DNA of 22,230 nt from a virus: the IMG/VR virus record IMGVR_UViG_3300035169_000089, positions 1 to 22,230 of that record; one strand, written 5' to 3'. Positions 2,743 to 19,171 of the stretch are shown here, piece after piece. The position numbers and the translations under genes were made by a program. The notes under the pieces are model-generated. The model was not told the DNA's origin. It did no database searches and saw only the letters and a program-made list of their open reading frames with translations. Every line of letters starts with the position of its first letter. The first letter of the stretch is position 1.

Positions 2743-3381
2743 ATGTCCGAGGACGCAGGGCTGGACATCGACTACGACGCCGAGCTGGCCCGGATGCAGG
2801 GCATCGTCGCCCAGGTGCCGCAGCCGCCGCCCGCGGCCAAGGTGGAGATCGCGCCCGGCAAGGTCACCGAGTCGGACCGGACCGTGGAGTTCATGGGCGA
2901 GCGGTTCCGGATCGCGGACAAGACCGGCCTGATGCCGATGCTGAAGTTCTCGGCGTCCGCGGAGCTGAGCACGGCTGACTCCGGCGCGCTGGCGGCCATG
3001 TACGCGATGCTGAAGGACTGCATCCATCCCGGCCACCCGGGCTGCGGCGACTGCCTGTTCTGCGACCCGGACCCGTGCGGGCAGTGCCGGGCCTGCCAGC
3101 AGGCGGCCGTCAACGAGGAGGAGCCGGCCTGCCTGCGGAACCCGGCGGACGAGACCCGCTGCGCGGAGTACGACCCGGGTGACTGGCGCCGGTTCGAGCA
3201 GCACGCGATCGACACCCGGGCCGGCGCGGACGAGCTGCTGGACGTCATCACCAAGGCGATCGAGCTGATCGCCGGCCGCCCTACCGAGCCGCCGTCAGCC
3301 TCCTCGCCTGGGCGGCGGTCCATTCGGGACGCCTCGATGGCACGCTCCTCCGCTCGTCGGGGCGGGGGATCGAGGCGCTGA
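2743..3381 (+). CDS. Tail assembly chaperone, short form (lambda G-like), with Cys-rich insertion
   Basis: Cytoplasmic chaperone that coats the tape measure protein during tail assembly. A 212-residue protein; GAGAGGA lies 8 bases before the ATG. Position between tail tube and tape measure genes, the acidic N-terminal half, the pattern YAMLKDCIHP, the later DPGDWRRFEQHA and DELLDVITKAIELIAGRPT, and a frameshift into the next frame identify it. Unusually, between LKDCIHP (to about residue 96) and DPGDW (from about 144) sits a segment with cysteines at 93, 101, 104, 107, 112, 115, 118, 130 and 140, including two CxxCxxC triads. In the relatives I know, the DCI and W-x-RF motifs are nearly adjacent, so this reads as an inserted metal-binding-like module. 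The tail after residue 180 (Ser/Arg-rich) is read only by ribosomes that do not shift. Confidence 0.85.
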   Translation: MSEDAGLDIDYDAELARMQGIVAQVPQPPPAAKVEIAPGKVTESDRTVEFMGERFRIADKTGLMPMLKFSASAELSTADSGALAAMYAMLKDCIHPGHPGCGDCLFCDPDPCGQCRACQQAAVNEEEPACLRNPADETRCAEYDPGDWRRFEQHAIDTRAGADELLDVITKAIELIAGRPTEPPSASSPGRRSIRDASMARSSARRGGGSRR

Positions 3382-3626
3382 CGGTCCGGCAGTGCTGCAA
3401 CGTCGCCTACTCGATGCTGGCGGACCAGTGCCGGGACGACGAGCAGCTGGCCGAGCTGGACTCCCGGCTCGGCATGGCCGACAGCCCGCAGGACGAGGCC
3501 CTGCAGGCGCTGCGAGAGCACCAGGAGGCGGCAGGCATGACGTTCGACTCCCCCGATGCCCCGGTGGCCGCGCCGGACCGCGGTGACCTGCCCGGCTGGA
3601 TGACGGCGAATGAGGAGTTCCGGTGA
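2743..3626 (+). CDS. Tail assembly chaperone, long form by -1 frameshift (lambda G-T-like)
   Basis: The -1 frame relative to the short form is open through the end of that gene and on to TGA 3624-3626. Its reading from about 3282 is YRAAVSLLAWAAVHSG..., then TVRQCCNVAYSMLADQ and a charged tail ending NEEFR, plausible for the T-like extension. It has no SD-led start: the first ATG in that frame (3414) lies deep within the segment. Shifting after Pro180 at CGC-CCT-ACC (3277-3285), where tRNA-Pro can re-pair from CCT to CCC, gives a fusion of about 294 residues. Actinophage chaperones commonly shift at or near this GRPT sequence, though the classic X-XXY-YYZ heptamer is absent here. The long form is normally made as a small fraction of the product. 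The next gene starts in a 4-base GTGA overlap with its stop. Confidence 0.7.
3277..3285 (+). other. Candidate -1 frameshift site
   Basis: Zero-frame codons CGC CCT ACC encode the R-P-T of GRPT. Backward slip by one base lets the Pro tRNA pair with CCC (3279-3281) and the next codon becomes TAC. A second run, GGGGGA at 3364-3369, lies in the overlap but fits less well because the P-site codon would have to re-pair with CGG. Confidence 0.5.
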
Positions 3627-3988: not shown

Positions 3989-4011
3989 TGACCGCAGCGG
4001 GAGCGCACTGA
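3988..4011 (+). other. Seven-codon minicistron bridging two genes
   Basis: ATG 3988-3990 shares its A with the upstream stop (TGA 3986-3988) and reads MTAAGAH before TGA 4009-4011, whose A is the first base of the tape measure ATG. It also contains the GGGAG ribosome binding site for that gene. It could keep ribosomes moving from the small tail protein to the tape measure gene, or be chance. Confidence 0.3.
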
Positions 4012-7000
4012 TGGCCCGGATGCTGGGCGAGGCCTTTTTCACGGTCTACCCGGACAGCACGGGCTTCCGCACGCTCCTGGACCTCCAGATCCGCAAGGCG
4101 ATCGCCGGGATCAGGCCGACCGTGCCGATCGGGGTGGACGCCAAGAACGTCCTGTCCACCATCCTGGATCTGCAGGCCCGGATGAAGGCACTGTCCGGAA
4201 CGCTGGCCAAGATGCGGATCGACGCTGACGGAAAGCCGGCCGAGGCCACGATCGCCAGGCTCCAGACCCGGCTGCTGGCCCTGTCCAAGAAGGTCGCGTC
4301 CATCACGATGAACGCGGACACGACCAAGCTGGACGCGCAGATCGCCGCCGAGGAAGCCAAGCTGGCCAAGCTGCGGCTCCAGGCATCGGACCTGGTGATG
4401 GACGCCGACACGGCCAAGGCCGCCGCCAAGATCGCGGCCATCCAGAAGCAGATCGCCGGACTCAACAAAAGCCTGGACAAGCTGACCGCCGACGTCGACA
4501 TCGACGCCGCGATAACCAAGATCTACGCGCTCGAAGCCGAGCTGAAGGTGCTGCAGTCGAACGCCAAGGCGGTGAAACTGGCCGCCGACACCGCCGCTTT
4601 CGATGCTGCGATCAACGCCAAGATCGCCCTGATCGCCACGCTGAAAGCGCAGGCTGCCGACGTCAAGATCGGCGCCAACGTCGATGTCGCCGGGCTGGCC
4701 GCCGCCGACGCCGCGCTGCTGGGCATCCGGAACGCGATGCAGGACATCAACGCGATCAAGCCCGGCCCGGCCTTCCAGGTCATCAGCGGCGGCGGGTTCG
4801 CCAACCTGGGCGGCCAGGTCGCCGGGATCAAGGTGTGGCACCTGGCCCTGGACACCGCGCTCGAATCGATCATCGCGGTAACCGGCGCGCTGATCGCGCT
4901 GGGCGCCGGCCTCGCGGCCATCTCCGAGCCGGCCGCCAACATCGGCACCCGGCTGAAGGCCGTCGACACGGTATCGGCCGCGCTGGGCGTCACCATCCCG
5001 CCGCTGACCGGCAAGATGGACGCGCTCATGAAGGCCATGGTGCCGCAGACGATCGAGCTGTTCGGCGCCGGCCTCAACATCGTCCAGAGCCAGTCCGGCC
5101 AGCTGCTCAAGCAGATGGCGCCGGTCGTCAACCTGTTCGACACCTGGGCCGCCAAGATCGTCATGTGGGTGGCCAACCAGCACTCGTTCGGCGCGGCGGT
5201 GCAGGCCGGGGCGGGGTACCTGGCCCAGTTCGGCACCGCTGTCGGGCACCTGGTCGACGCCATCTCCAACCTGCTGTCCAAGGACCCCGGGATGGCCCAC
5301 TACTTCCTGGACATCATCCAGGGGTTCACCGGGCTGCTGGACATCATCTCCAAGCTCCCCGGCCCGCTGCTGGCCACCGCGCTGGCCCTGCACGGGGTCT
5401 ACCTGTGGACCAAGGTGCTGGTCGTGGCGCCGGTCCTGGCCCTGGCCAAGGCCCTCGGCCTGCTGTCCGACGAGCAGGCCGCCGCCGCGGTCTCGGGGCT
5501 GAAGTTCAAGAACATCATCGGGACGATCATCGCCAACCCGCTCATCGCCGCGCTGGTCGCGCTGGGCGCCGCCATGGTCTACATGGGGATCGCGTCCAAG
5601 CAGGCCAGCAATACCACCCGCGACTTCATCACGAACCTGGAGACCGGGCTGTCCAACATGTCCGCCAGCGATGCCATCGTCGGGATCAGCAAGGACATCG
5701 GGCTGCTCAACCAGCAGATCGCCAAGACCACGCCCGCGGAGGAGTACTCCAAGGGCTGGAACACCCTGGGCCAGACCTTCCGGTCCACCGGCCTGGACGC
5801 CCGCGCGTTCGGCAGCGACTGGGCCAAGACCGTCACCCAGTTCACCTCCGGTAACACCCTGGGCGCCCTCCAGTCCTTCGGCAAGGCCCTCAAGGACCTG
5901 TTCGTGCCCGGCGGGGGCTCGGCCATCGCCGCCTCGCAGGACATCGCGAAGATGCGCGCCGAGATCGACAAGCTGTCCAGCTCCCAGAGCAACCTGGTTC
6001 AGGTCATGGGCCACTTCGCCAGCTCCGGCTTCACCGTGGAGCAGTCGCTGGCCCTGATGGACCTGGCCGGGGTCAAGTTCAACGACAGCGTCGGCCTCAT
6101 GATCTCCAAGGTCAACAACCTGATCACCGGCTACAAGAACGTGACCGGCACGGGCGGGGCCCTGGAGAACAGCGTCAACGCGGTTACCTTCGCGGCCCTC
6201 CAGCAGCAGGAGAAGGTCCAGCAGCTCAACGACGGCTGGGACGCGTTCTTCAAGACGGTCTCCGGCGGCCAGTCCGGGTTCCTGTCGTTCGCCCAGCAGA
6301 CGATCGGCCTGTACGCCTCGCTGAACGCCTCCGGGGTCAAGCTCACCGACTCCAACGGAAAAGTCTCCGCGTCGCTGCAGGGCCTGGCCACGGGCGCGGG
6401 CAGCGCGAAGATCAGCATGACCGGGCTGAACAGCGCGTCGATCACGGCCCAGCAGACCTTCCTGCAGTCCGCCACGGCGGCCAACGCGCAGATGGACAAC
6501 CTGAACCTGCTGGCCAACGCCGCCGGGCTCGGCCAGCACGGCGTGGACCTGCTGGCCCAGGCGAACCGGGACATGGTGGCCTCGCTGCTGCCGGCCGCGA
6601 AGAACAGCCAGGTGCTGACCGACGTGCTGTACGCCCTGGCCCAGCGCGGCGGCTACCAGGGCGCCAACTCGTTCAAGGCGCTGTCGGAATGGGTCGGCAA
6701 GGTCAAGGATCCGATGCAGAACCTGGAAGGCGTCACCGCCACGCTGACCGGCAAGGCCGCCGGGCTGACCCAGGACGTCAAGAACCTGTCCCTGGCGCTG
6801 GGCACCACCTTGAACAACGCCATGGCCGATGTGGTCTTCACCTTCACCGGGGGCAAGCAGGCCCTGATCGATTTCGGGACCGCGCTGAAGACCAGCACCT
6901 TCAACAGCAAGGACCAGCAGACGGCGGCCAAGAACCTGGCCGATCAGTTCATCAAGCTGACCGGGAACACCCGGGACGCCCACAACGAGTTCATCACCTT

Positions 7001-8405
7001 CGCCACCCAGCTCGGCCTGAACAAGACCCAGGCTGAGCAGCTGTGGCAGGAAGTCGAGGGCAAGCTCAGCCCGTCCATCCAGAACCTGGCCACCACGGTC
7101 CTGGCCAACGCCAAGGGCCAGTTCACCACGTTCGCCGAGGTCGGCCTGAACCAGACCAAGACCCAGGCCGACCAGCTGTGGAGCGAGATCACCAGCAAGC
7201 TCGGCCCGGGGCTGGACAACCTGGGCAACCTGGCCGGCGGGACGGCGAAGGCCAAGTTCATCGACTGGGCCGAGAACGGCCTGAAGCTCACCCAGACCCA
7301 GGCCACCGCCCTGTGGAACGAGCTGGTCGTCCTCCAGAACCACATCAACTCCCTGCAGGGCAAGACCATCACCCTGCAGATGATCGCCTCCGGGCAGGGC
7401 GGCGTGTCGGTCACCGCGTCGGGCCTGGCCGCCAAGGAGATCATGCTGTCCAAGCTGGCCGGCGGCGGCCTCATCCAGATGGGATCCGGGCCCACCGCCG
7501 ATGACGTGCCCGCGATGCTGTCCAAAGGCGAGCTGGTCGTGCCCGCGAAGATGGTCAAGGGCGGCGCGGTCGATCATCTCCGCGGGATGCTGCCCGGGTT
7601 CGCGGCGGGCGGCCTCGTCAGCCTGCCCGGCGAGGCCAGCGCCCTGCCCGAAGCCGTGGGCAGCGCGACCAGCTCGGATACCGCGACCATCCTGTCATCC
7701 GACCTGACCACCGTCCTGGCGCAGATGAAGCAGCAGATTATCGCCGCCGAGCAAGCTGCGCTGATCGCGGCGATCGGGGCCAAGGGCATCACCGGGGCCG
7801 GGGTGACCAACTCCAGCGCGTACGCCGCGCTCCAGGCCGCGGCGGCGAAGGCCGGCTGGACCGGGGCCCAGTGGGCGGCCCTGGTCCAGGTGGAGAACCG
7901 GGAAGCCGGGTTCAGCCTCACCGCGAAGAACCCGTCCAGCGGCGCCTACGGCCTGGCGCAGTTCATCAACGGCCCGTCCGAGTACGCCACCTACGGCGGT
8001 AATTCGACCACGGCAGCGGGCCAGGCCGTCGCGATGGTCAATTACATCAAGCAAAGGTACGGAACGCCGGCCGCGGCGCTGGCGCACGAGAACGCCTACG
8101 GCTGGTACGGCAAGGGCGGCCTGGTCGCGCAGTCCTACGACGCCGGCGGGTACCTGCGGCCGGGCGCGACGCTGGCCTGGAACGGCACCGGGCGCCCCGA
8201 GCCGGTGGGCAGCCCGGGTGCCGCGCTGGATACCAAGCTGGACAAGCTGATCGCCCTGACCGCCAGCCACGTCGCGCTCACCCGCAAGCTGATCGACACC
8301 ACGGCCTCGGTGCCCTCCGGGGTCGGCAACGCGGTCGGCGGGGCGTTCGGCGGGGCGTCCGCCGCGGCCGGCTTCCGCAACCGCTACGCACGAGGCGGTG
8401 CCTGA
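4011..8405 (+). CDS. Tape measure protein with C-terminal lytic domain
   Basis: Sets tail length and is ejected ahead of the DNA. 1464 residues; GGGAG precedes the ATG. Residues about 40-225 are an exact 30-residue repeat of form [hydrophobic]-x-[A/V]-D followed by an amphipathic helix, with Asp at 43, 73, 103, 133, 163 and 193 and Asn at 223. Hydrophobic segments include about 283-305, 460-490 and 502-525, suitable for membrane insertion. Three repeats of GLN-x-TQ-x-A-x-x-LW occur at about residues 1001, 1044 and 1089. The C-terminal part (from about 1265) is a lysozyme-like transglycosylase domain: REAGFSLTAKNPSSGAYGLAQF with probable catalytic Glu1298, then YIKQRYGTPAAALAHE and GWYGKGG. 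It would cut peptidoglycan locally during infection. Its stop overlaps the next start (TGATG). Confidence 0.93.
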   Translation: MARMLGEAFFTVYPDSTGFRTLLDLQIRKAIAGIRPTVPIGVDAKNVLSTILDLQARMKALSGTLAKMRIDADGKPAEATIARLQTRLLALSKKVASITMNADTTKLDAQIAAEEAKLAKLRLQASDLVMDADTAKAAAKIAAIQKQIAGLNKSLDKLTADVDIDAAITKIYALEAELKVLQSNAKAVKLAADTAAFDAAINAKIALIATLKAQAADVKIGANVDVAGLAAADAALLGIRNAMQDINAIKPGPAFQVISGGGFANLGGQVAGIKVWHLALDTALESIIAVTGALIALGAGLAAISEPAANIGTRLKAVDTVSAALGVTIPPLTGKMDALMKAMVPQTIELFGAGLNIVQSQSGQLLKQMAPVVNLFDTWAAKIVMWVANQHSFGAAVQAGAGYLAQFGTAVGHLVDAISNLLSKDPGMAHYFLDIIQGFTGLLDIISKLPGPLLATALALHGVYLWTKVLVVAPVLALAKALGLLSDEQAAAAVSGLKFKNIIGTIIANPLIAALVALGAAMVYMGIASKQASNTTRDFITNLETGLSNMSASDAIVGISKDIGLLNQQIAKTTPAEEYSKGWNTLGQTFRSTGLDARAFGSDWAKTVTQFTSGNTLGALQSFGKALKDLFVPGGGSAIAASQDIAKMRAEIDKLSSSQSNLVQVMGHFASSGFTVEQSLALMDLAGVKFNDSVGLMISKVNNLITGYKNVTGTGGALENSVNAVTFAALQQQEKVQQLNDGWDAFFKTVSGGQSGFLSFAQQTIGLYASLNASGVKLTDSNGKVSASLQGLATGAGSAKISMTGLNSASITAQQTFLQSATAANAQMDNLNLLANAAGLGQHGVDLLAQANRDMVASLLPAAKNSQVLTDVLYALAQRGGYQGANSFKALSEWVGKVKDPMQNLEGVTATLTGKAAGLTQDVKNLSLALGTTLNNAMADVVFTFTGGKQALIDFGTALKTSTFNSKDQQTAAKNLADQFIKLTGNTRDAHNEFITFATQLGLNKTQAEQLWQEVEGKLSPSIQNLATTVLANAKGQFTTFAEVGLNQTKTQADQLWSEITSKLGPGLDNLGNLAGGTAKAKFIDWAENGLKLTQTQATALWNELVVLQNHINSLQGKTITLQMIASGQGGVSVTASGLAAKEIMLSKLAGGGLIQMGSGPTADDVPAMLSKGELVVPAKMVKGGAVDHLRGMLPGFAAGGLVSLPGEASALPEAVGSATSSDTATILSSDLTTVLAQMKQQIIAAEQAALIAAIGAKGITGAGVTNSSAYAALQAAAAKAGWTGAQWAALVQVENREAGFSLTAKNPSSGAYGLAQFINGPSEYATYGGNSTTAAGQAVAMVNYIKQRYGTPAAALAHENAYGWYGKGGLVAQSYDAGGYLRPGATLAWNGTGRPEPVGSPGAALDTKLDKLIALTASHVALTRKLIDTTASVPSGVGNAVGGAFGGASAAAGFRNRYARGGA

Positions 8406-17157: not shown

Positions 17158-17227
17158 ATGTTATTGCCGCGTGATCTGCCGTGATGGCACGCTTCAGCGA
17201 GCTGCTGCCACTGCCGGGAGATCACAC

Positions 17228-18073
17228 ATGCGCCACAGCGCTGCAGGACGCCATGCTCGGTACCCTGCCCACCCGCACCGGGTGTCTTACCTGATAGCCG
17301 TACTCGCCGCGCTCGCCGCCCTGGTCGCGGCGTTCGCACTGGCCGGCCAGTCCCAGTCCGCCCAGGCGCAAGCCGCCCCGGCCCGCCTGCTGGACCGGTC
17401 AGCCGAACTGGCCCTGCCTGATGACACGGCCGTTACGCTCGCGCAGGACAAGACAGTGGCCGCGCGATCGCAGCTGGCTTTTCAGCGGGCCAGGGAAGCG
17501 ATCACCGCGGCTACGTACACGGTGCGGGCCGGTGATTCACTCTCGGCAGTGGCAGCAGACCACTGCGGGCCCCCGCGCGACTGGACCGGCATCTACGCCG
17601 CCAGCCGGGCCCGGGGCTGGACCGCACGGAACGCCAACGACCTGACCGCCGGGCAGCACCTGTTCCTCGCGTGCTCCTGGGTCCCGGCCGAGCTGAAGTT
17701 CGCGCCGGAGCCGCCCCCGCCGCCGCGGCCCGCCGTCCAGGTCCTCACGCACGTGCAGCATTCCGCCGTCGTCCATATCGCCGTCGCGGCCCCCGCCTAC
17801 GTCTCGTCCGGGATCTACTCCTACGGCGCGCTGGAAGCCCTGTGGGTGAGCGCCGGCGGCCCGGCCTGGGCGGCCTCGCACGCAGCCGAGATCGCCGAGT
17901 GCGAATCCGGCGGCAACCCGTCCGCCTACAACCCCAGCGGGGCGACCGGCCTGTGGCAGATCCTCGGCTCGGTCGTGCCGGGCAACCTGGACAACCCGTT
18001 CACCAACGCGCTGAACGCGGTAGCGAAGTTCAGGGCCAGCGGCGGCACGTTCGCCCAGTGGGTCTGCACCTGA
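17228..18073 (+). CDS. Secreted LysM / lysozyme-like peptidoglycan hydrolase (endolysin)
   Basis: 281 residues from ATG 17228, chosen because GGGAG (17217-17221) precedes it; an earlier in-frame GTG at 17171 lacks an SD. A basic start and a hydrophobic stretch at about 19-40 (VSYLIAVLAALAALVAAFALA), followed by Gln/Ala-rich sequence, form a signal peptide or anchor. A LysM domain at about 96-148 (TYTVRAGDSLSAVAADHCG ... LTAGQHLFLAC) binds glycan. A Pro-rich linker (PEPPPPPRP) leads to a lysozyme/transglycosylase-like domain at about 195-281 (AECESGGNPSAYNPSGATGLWQIL ... FAQWVCT). Glu226 is the probable catalytic residue, and Cys225 and Cys280 may pair. It would cleave the glycan strands outside the membrane. 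The next gene starts 4 bases after its stop. Confidence 0.87.
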   Translation: MRHSAAGRHARYPAHPHRVSYLIAVLAALAALVAAFALAGQSQSAQAQAAPARLLDRSAELALPDDTAVTLAQDKTVAARSQLAFQRAREAITAATYTVRAGDSLSAVAADHCGPPRDWTGIYAASRARGWTARNANDLTAGQHLFLACSWVPAELKFAPEPPPPPRPAVQVLTHVQHSAVVHIAVAAPAYVSSGIYSYGALEALWVSAGGPAWAASHAAEIAECESGGNPSAYNPSGATGLWQILGSVVPGNLDNPFTNALNAVAKFRASGGTFAQWVCT

Positions 18074-18077
18074 TCCC

Positions 18078-18725
18078 GTGCTGCGCAAGCTGCCCCCGTA
18101 CAAGAGGGCCTGGATCGCCCTGCTCCTGGCGTGCGCCGGGGTCACCGCCGGCGGCGTCATGACACTGGCGGCCAGCGGCCGGATCCCTGCCGCGCTGCAC
18201 GCCCGGATGACGTTCTCGGCCAGCCAGGTCCCGTCCGCTCAGGCCGGCGCTCCGGCCGGCACGCAAGTGCAGGACCCGGCCGCGCCGAGCCCCGCCCAGA
18301 CCACCGCCGGGGAACCGGGACCCCCTAATCCCCCTAGCTCCCCCGGTTCCCCGGCGGCGTCACCGTCTTCCCGGTCCCTGTTCTCCCCGCCATCTGCCGG
18401 CCCGGATCCCGCCTCCCCGGTACTGCCCGGGGCGCCGTCAGTGAGCGCGATCGTCGTCACCCGGACCGCGACCGCAGCGCCGCCGTCATCAGCAGTCACG
18501 TCATCAGCCCCGGCCGCGCCGTCTTCCAGCCCAGCTCCGATCTCGATCCCGCCGGGTGATCCCGGGCCGACGCCCGAGCCGCCGCCCGTGACGGTGACCG
18601 AGACGGAGACCACGACCGCGCCGCCCCCGCCGCCGACCGCGTTCATGCCCACCCGGGCACGTACCCCGGACCCCGTGCCCGACCCGGCGCCGGACCCGGG
18701 ACCGACAGGAGGATTACCGTCATGA
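18078..18725 (+). CDS. Pro/Ser/Ala-rich membrane-anchored protein
   Basis: 215 residues from GTG 18078. A basic N-terminus (MLRKLPPYKR) precedes one hydrophobic helix at about 11-32 (AWIALLLACAGVTAGGVMTL). The remainder is low-complexity and Pro, Ser, Ala and Thr-rich with segments such as TVTETETTTAPPPPPT and PDPVPDPAPDPG, and no cysteines. This predicts a membrane-anchored, extended segment reaching into the cell wall. It lies between two hydrolase genes and overlaps the second by ATGA, so it is co-translated with them. It may act as a wall-spanning spacer or scaffold; spanins are not expected in a host lacking an outer membrane. I know no family. Its start has a poor SD, and translation may depend on coupling. 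Confidence 0.6.
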   Translation: MLRKLPPYKRAWIALLLACAGVTAGGVMTLAASGRIPAALHARMTFSASQVPSAQAGAPAGTQVQDPAAPSPAQTTAGEPGPPNPPSSPGSPAASPSSRSLFSPPSAGPDPASPVLPGAPSVSAIVVTRTATAAPPSSAVTSSAPAAPSSSPAPISIPPGDPGPTPEPPPVTVTETETTTAPPPPPTAFMPTRARTPDPVPDPAPDPGPTGGLPS

Positions 18726-19171
18726 GGCGACTTCTCGCCGCCCTGCTCGTCGCGGCCGGCGCGCTCGGAGCCAGCGCCATGCTGCCCGCCGCCGCGCACG
18801 CATCGACCGGATCCCTCGGCGACCAGGTGCTGAACGAAGCCGAAACCCGGGCCGGGGACTGGTACTCCTACGGCGCCGCCGGCCCTTCGGCGTTCGACTG
18901 CTCGGGGCTCGTCGTGTGGTCGGCCGCCCAGCTCGGCAGGACGCTCCCGCGCACCACGTTCAGCATGCTGGCCGACGCCGGGCACTTCTACGCCGTGCCG
19001 GTCAGCCAGGCCCGGCGGGGAGATCTGATGTTCTTCGGGACCGGGCACGTGGAGATCATGACCAGCTGGTATCACACCACGTTCGGAGCCCAGCAGACGG
19101 GAACCCGGGTGGGCTGGCACAGGTGGTCGGCCGGCTGGGCCCCGACGATGGCCCTGCGCTGGCGCGGGTAA
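18722..19171 (+). CDS. Secreted NlpC/P60 peptidoglycan endopeptidase
   Basis: 149 residues; AGGAGG lies 9 bases before the ATG, which overlaps the previous stop (ATGA). A signal peptide MRRLLAALLVAAGALGASAM with probable cleavage after AHA (about residue 27) is followed by an NlpC/P60 domain. The catalytic Cys60 is in SAFDCSGLVVW and the His109 in GTGHVEIM, with RRGDLMFFG between them, the standard order for this cysteine peptidase family. It would cut peptide stems or crosslinks of peptidoglycan outside the membrane, complementing the glycan-cutting enzyme upstream. At 149 residues it is essentially one catalytic domain with no wall-binding domain. It is the last plus-strand gene; a strong hairpin follows. 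Confidence 0.88.
   Translation: MRRLLAALLVAAGALGASAMLPAAAHASTGSLGDQVLNEAETRAGDWYSYGAAGPSAFDCSGLVVWSAAQLGRTLPRTTFSMLADAGHFYAVPVSQARRGDLMFFGTGHVEIMTSWYHTTFGAQQTGTRVGWHRWSAGWAPTMALRWRG

Follow-up and report, generated by a model that had tools for sequence, protein, structure and literature searches.

A variable cysteine-rich insert, probably a structural zinc module, in an HK97 gp13-type tail assembly chaperone

The tail assembly chaperones (TACs) of phages self-assemble into rings or spirals (PMC9603447), and three solved chains of this type, 3fgx (RBSTP2171), 2ob9 (HK97 gp13) and 3klu (YqbN), are also the top DALI matches of another TAC-like protein (PMC9603447). The genes of such chaperones commonly lie between those of the major tail protein and the tape measure protein, and in many long-tailed phages a -1 frameshift gives rise to a longer fusion product. 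We know of no metal site in HK97 gp13, YqbN or RBSTP2171, and our search of open-access papers turned up none described for any tail assembly chaperone. Two kinds of cysteine-rich zinc site from other proteins are relevant to the chaperone described here. The structural zinc of the medium-chain dehydrogenases (MDR), the family of the alcohol dehydrogenases (ADH), is held by Cys97, Cys100, Cys103 and Cys111 (PMC9895041). The solved CXXC domains, such as that of MBD1, follow the pattern CXXCXXC-X4/5-CXXCXXC; their first zinc ion (Zn1) is bound by cysteines 1, 2, 3 and 8 and their second (Zn2) by cysteines 4 to 7 (PMC4642587).

The DNA that we analyzed (the window) comprises positions 1 to 22,230 of the IMG/VR virus record IMGVR_UViG_3300035169_000089 and has a G+C content of 70%. 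From this high G+C content, a relative of the chaperone in Actinomadura and the fact that the tape measure domain matches actinophages, we infer that the phage's host is an actinobacterium; its habitat would be soil. The tail genes are arranged in the order described above: a major-tail-protein-like open reading frame (ORF; positions 2268–2633, + strand; phrog_10528, major tail protein, E 0.00096) is followed by the chaperone ORF (2743–3381, +), one small ORF and the tape measure gene (4011–8405, +). The 1464-residue product of the latter matches both a tail length tape measure family (phrog_991, E 2.7e-11) and a transglycosylase family (phrog_12661, E 5.8e-10). Among the relatives looked at for this feature, a downstream open frame of more than 1000 codons is present in three that have no insert (L034, L037 and L096) and in the distant L072.

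The 212-residue product of ORF 2743–3381 is, judging by its predicted fold, its gene order and its frameshift architecture, a tail assembly chaperone, as the initial annotation had proposed, and one of the HK97 gp13 type. When the AF2 model of a short-form relative was compared with solved structures by VIA-align 2, the top three rows were all solved TAC-type chains, namely 3fgx (Z 7.4), 2ob9 (Z 5.3) and 3klu (Z 3.8), the Z values being modest ones obtained on a predicted model with rows drawn from Foldseek's own candidates. This product corresponds to the short, gpG-like form of the chaperone. The -1 frame is open from 3282 to 3626 (+) and is conserved in relatives as PYRAA..LL.W; this C-terminal extension would produce a gpGT-like fusion of about 294 residues. 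At the junction of the two frames lies the sequence CGCCCTAC (3277–3284, +), which 42 of 43 relatives share without change and which contains a CCT codon, although none of the 36 proline codons of the tape measure gene is CCT. An open -1 frame and a sequence conserved in spite of a codon that is otherwise unused are what a programmed frameshift would lead one to expect; CGCCCTAC is its probable site, with a slip from CCU to CCC. We know of no standard heptamer of such a kind.

The feature that sets this chaperone apart from HK97 gp13, YqbN and RBSTP2171 is a cysteine-rich insert in a loop between two helices. The initial annotation had noted nine cysteines in the segment 3019–3174, which is exactly codons 93 to 144 of the chaperone ORF, with two CxxCxxC triads spaced four residues apart. 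The positions (Cys93, 101, 104, 107, 112, 115, 118, 130 and 140) and the spacing of the triads, which start at 3043 and 3076, are indeed as it described. Cysteine makes up only 0.57% of the residues of the twelve other plausible ORFs in the window, and with such a background the binomial probability of at least nine cysteines in 48 residues is about 9e-12, so the cluster cannot be attributed to chance; these two triads are also the only CxxCxxC motifs in the plausible genes of the window. The count of nine must nevertheless be reduced by one. Cys93 belongs to the chaperone core, and of the 44 insert-bearing sequences 30 retain it and 14 have Val or Ile instead, which rules it out as a metal ligand and leaves a module of eight cysteines.

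Profile searches of viral contigs gave two overlapping sets of 32 and 76 loci, to which a single locus from an Actinomadura genome was added; after identical cores had been removed there remained 49 sequences including the window (48 distinct relatives). Three states of the insert coexist in this collection. Four sequences (L034, L037, L096 and L097) have none: their junctions, DCIHPDDW, DCLHEDDW, DCIDADEW and DCVDESEW respectively, pass almost directly from DCI, DCL or DCV to DW or EW. They lack any counterpart of the window's insert, approximately residues 95–146 (3025–3180, +), which lies between helices 80–93 and 148–157 of the AF2 model, and this absence, together with the frameshift architecture and the predicted fold, bears out the claim of an insertion in a tail assembly chaperone. 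The short insert, with four cysteines in the pattern CGxCxxC-x7..13-C, is present in 34 complete copies and one degenerate copy. The long insert has eight, arranged as CGxCxxC-x4-CGxCxxC-x9..16-C-x9/10-C, and occurs in ten sequences, the window among them. In all 44 complete distinct inserts the first three cysteines and the closing one are invariant, and the glycine after the first cysteine (Gly102 in the window) is present in 43, amid residues that are mostly hypervariable. The cysteines are thus all present or all absent, with the single exception of the degenerate copy (L095, 4001–4513), whose insert, CIHPGSPCTCGAPVPDGQTIREALHRSGCGYDPGDW, has lost its triad and could be a decaying metal site.

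The four-cysteine insert is therefore the usual state within this phage family. The annotation had called a metal-binding module in a chaperone unexpected, a word that must be qualified for the relatives of this one. It had also named, as grounds for refutation, a segment present across the family with poorly conserved cysteines; the segment is indeed common, but its cysteines are perfectly conserved. All of the insert-bearing sequences are IMG/VR contigs; tblastn searches with long, short and insert-free chaperones gave no relevant match among 50,697 phage records and hence no relative from an isolated phage, whereas the window's tape measure domain matched 687 of the phage records. When genome contigs were scanned, a single chaperone relative emerged; it belongs to Actinomadura litoris and lacks the insert, and sampling of about 100 genomes each from the family and the class of this bacterium revealed no others. 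Nor were relatives found by a search based on the tape measure gene, and nothing useful came of a lead offered by phrog_915. A DNA-pattern search of the viral contigs for two CGxCxxC units returned mostly short repeats in frames that are unlikely to be genes. Another phage protein (L153, 6153–7286; L156, 2661–3986) has two CGCCxxC units close together, PCGCCEWCSGIGCGCCDGC; one copy weakly matches a head maturation protease family, and that of L156 also has CPTC/CPDC pairs.

Comparison of the two forms of the insert indicates how the long one is built. In short and long forms alike, the first module cysteine is eight residues past the invariant Asp92 (two apparent exceptions, L049 and L051, have an extra cysteine three residues earlier that was caught by the pattern), and the closing cysteine always stands five residues ahead of the motif [GDSE][DE]W. 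Since the triad and the closing cysteine keep a fixed register to both helices, the inner four cysteines are truly nested, and from the aligned sequences the long form is the short form with a CxxCxxC...C unit placed between its third and fourth cysteines: (101,104,107,[112,115,118,130],140). We propose that the first CGxCxxC (Cys101/104/107; 3043–3063, +), found in all 44 distinct inserts, forms an outer zinc site with Cys140 (3160–3162, +), whose position before the [GDSE][DE]W motif is the same in all 44. The second CGxCxxC (Cys112/115/118; 3076–3096, +), present in all ten long forms and missing as a set from the short ones, would form an inner site with Cys130 (3130–3132, +), which in each long form is 9 or 10 residues before the last cysteine.

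In trees made without the insert columns the long and short forms interleave, and in a 21-row tree with the insert left out a single origin, as a clade, was rejected for both the long (AU p 0.00014) and the short form (AU p 0.0006). A larger tree requires at least eight changes to account for the long state, and its well-supported branches force five. In pairs such as the window with L002 and L026 with L029, the sequences that flank the missing stretch are similar at either end. The interleaving and the rejection of one origin per form imply that the inner module was repeatedly gained, lost or swapped, always as the full set of four cysteines. The similarity of the long inserts across lineages (CAPERCGxC...PCTVN) makes repeated loss, or exchange through recombination, no less likely than repeated gain. 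The placement of L034 among insert-bearing sequences suggests that it may have lost the entire insert.

The short form has much in common with the structural zinc lobe of the alcohol dehydrogenases, with which it shares the spacing C-x2-C-x2-C-x7-C, the motif CGxCxxCxxG and a predicted local backbone. This spacing is found in 18 of the 34 complete short inserts, while in the other 16 the last cysteine comes after 10, 11 or 13 residues, lengths that are seen in distant relatives and lie outside the ADH spacing, as does the window's long form. Nearly all of the weak PDB sequence matches were to ADH-family enzymes (32 of 33 for one short insert, 9 of 10 for another), and none were for two inserts shuffled with their cysteines fixed, one of these controls giving E 0.028 to an unrelated protein. 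The five most frequent of the weak NCBIfam matches were likewise all of the ADH type. The AF2 model of the short insert is confident (block means of pLDDT above 90), and Foldseek with this model listed mostly ADH lobes, the best rows with an rmsd of 0.5–0.8 Å over 19 columns, a likeness in local fold that is not independent of the ADH structures, on which AF2 was trained. The catalytic MDR domain (ADH_N) gave a best E of 0.026, below the cut-off, and only the lobe was covered. The short insert would work like the ADH structural zinc lobe without being a member of the MDR family. It is a stand-alone loop insert in an unrelated protein, and the likeness need not reflect common descent.

The long form, in contrast, departs from the ADH lobe and approaches the CXXC zinc fingers (PF02008; MLL, DNMT1, MBD1). 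All ten have the same CXXCXXC-X4/5-CXXCXXC, in the form CGxCxxC-x4-CGxCxxC, plus two distal cysteines, and the nested order fits two zinc ions; since the division into outer and inner cysteines obtained from the long-short comparison is exactly that of Zn1 and Zn2, the layout is CXXC-like. The Pfam model zf-CXXC matched ten alignment members, with E values down to 0.002 that are below the cut-off, its scores being 13.4 bits for the window and at most 18.4 for relatives against a gathering threshold of 26.5. The DNMT1 CXXC region was the sole VIA row (Z 2.0) for the long-form model, in which the insert is more weakly predicted (blocks of mean pLDDT 63–84), and Foldseek gave no significant match with it, the DNMT1 and MLL CXXC domains being among its few rows. 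On the other hand, the long inserts lack both the KFGG motif of the type 1, CpG-binding domains and the distal CXXRC motif, their last two cysteines being 9 or 10 residues apart in a different sequence, and they occur in a phage protein whose family also includes one-site inserts that lack the inner unit. It is possible, if somewhat doubtful, that this bacterial virus has in its long form a genuine two-zinc CXXC-type fold, derived from an ADH-type one-zinc lobe when CGxCxxC...C became nested within it. CXXC domains are, to our knowledge, otherwise eukaryotic. Were the long form such a fold, the states with no site, one site and two sites, existing side by side, would record the steps by which a two-zinc CXXC domain can be built.

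Every one of these ADH or CXXC sequence matches is individually insignificant (E from about 0.002 to 10), but the sequences, the predicted fold and the nesting revealed by comparison agree, and it is this agreement that leads us to a zinc module. A metal-binding insert is strongly indicated by the invariant, all-or-none cysteines, the zinc-site spacing and the predicted local fold; the metal is most likely zinc, with presumably two ions in the long form. The initial annotation, which left open a metal or an Fe-S cluster, is partly borne out, an Fe-S cluster being the less likely of its two options. Admittedly, [4Fe-4S] clusters can likewise show a CxxCxxC triad with a distal cysteine, ferredoxin-type chains are weakly matched by one shuffled insert, and single members match the Fe-S models NADH_4Fe-4S and fumarate reductase at E of about 0.1–0.15, so that one or two such clusters might be imagined to make the chaperone responsive to redox state or iron. 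This is nonetheless unlikely, since the matches of the natural inserts are to the zinc sites of ADH and CXXC proteins rather than to ferredoxins, the glycine after the first cysteine (43 of 44) is that of the ADH and CXXC sites, and the tape measure and major-tail-protein-like proteins contain no cysteine at all. The structural zinc sites of ADH have no redox role, and we saw no sign of the control of tail assembly by metal or redox state that had been suggested.

The CXXC layout of the long form raises the idea of a zinc finger that binds DNA or the phage's own mRNA, for example in autoregulation, as many CXXC domains bind CpG DNA (PMC4642587). We consider this quite improbable: KFGG is absent, the stretch from the second triad to Cys130 is mostly rich in Glu and Asp, the hMBD1 CXXC1 domain, with no KFGG and a negative loop, belongs to a type without CpG binding (PMC4642587), and the commoner one-site form does not have the CXXC layout. 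That the insert is missing from some relatives and variable in length, in tail genes known to be mosaic, could suggest a neutral, tolerated surface loop whose cysteines are kept by shared descent alone. Among proteins only 40–74% identical to that of the window, however, the invariance of four cysteines amid hypervariable residues, the repeated changes of the inner unit by all four cysteines at once and the lack of any cysteine substitution beyond L095 make such neutrality highly improbable. Least probable of all is a loop stabilized by disulfides with no metal; the number of cysteines is even (four or eight), but CxxCxxC triads are typical metal ligands, the insert resembles zinc sites and the cytoplasm, where tail chaperones do their work, is reducing.

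We therefore think it likely that a structural zinc module, with an ADH-like Cys4 base and a nested CXXC-like inner unit, has been inserted between two helices of an HK97 gp13-type chaperone and braces the loop that joins them. Its base would be a single Cys4 site (Cys101, 104, 107 and 140), folded as in the ADH structural zinc lobe, a knuckle that pins the loop between the two chaperone helices. In the ten long forms, that of the window included, another CGxCxxC...C unit (Cys112, 115, 118 and 130) nested in the tip of the lobe would add a second knuckle and yield the two-zinc layout of CXXC zinc fingers. The metal-braced loop could then serve as a rigid knob where chaperone subunits meet around the tape measure protein, or where they touch that protein. 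We advance this location at a contact of either kind tentatively and with somewhat less than even confidence. A structural contact role is favored by the rings or spirals that TACs form (PMC9603447) and by the zinc lobe of xylitol dehydrogenase, which is a major contact of its tetramer (PMC9895041); against it is the fact that some relatives manage without the insert. Because the tape measure and major-tail-protein-like proteins have no cysteine, a shared disulfide or cysteine-metal bridge with them is excluded in the window phage. Naturally matched chaperones whose shared loop has zero, one or two predicted metal sites are available in this family, which makes both the part of this loop in chaperone assembly and the route from a one-zinc knuckle to a two-zinc finger directly testable with small proteins.

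Elsewhere in the window, a glycosyltransferase-like gene (21–890; PF13524, E 5e-14) lies upstream of the tail genes, and two probable cell-wall enzymes are encoded at 17171–18073 and 18722–19171; one of this pair weakly matches endolysins and transglycosylases (E about 4e-5), and in the other, residues 26–141 match a minor tail protein family of PHROG (E 2e-17).
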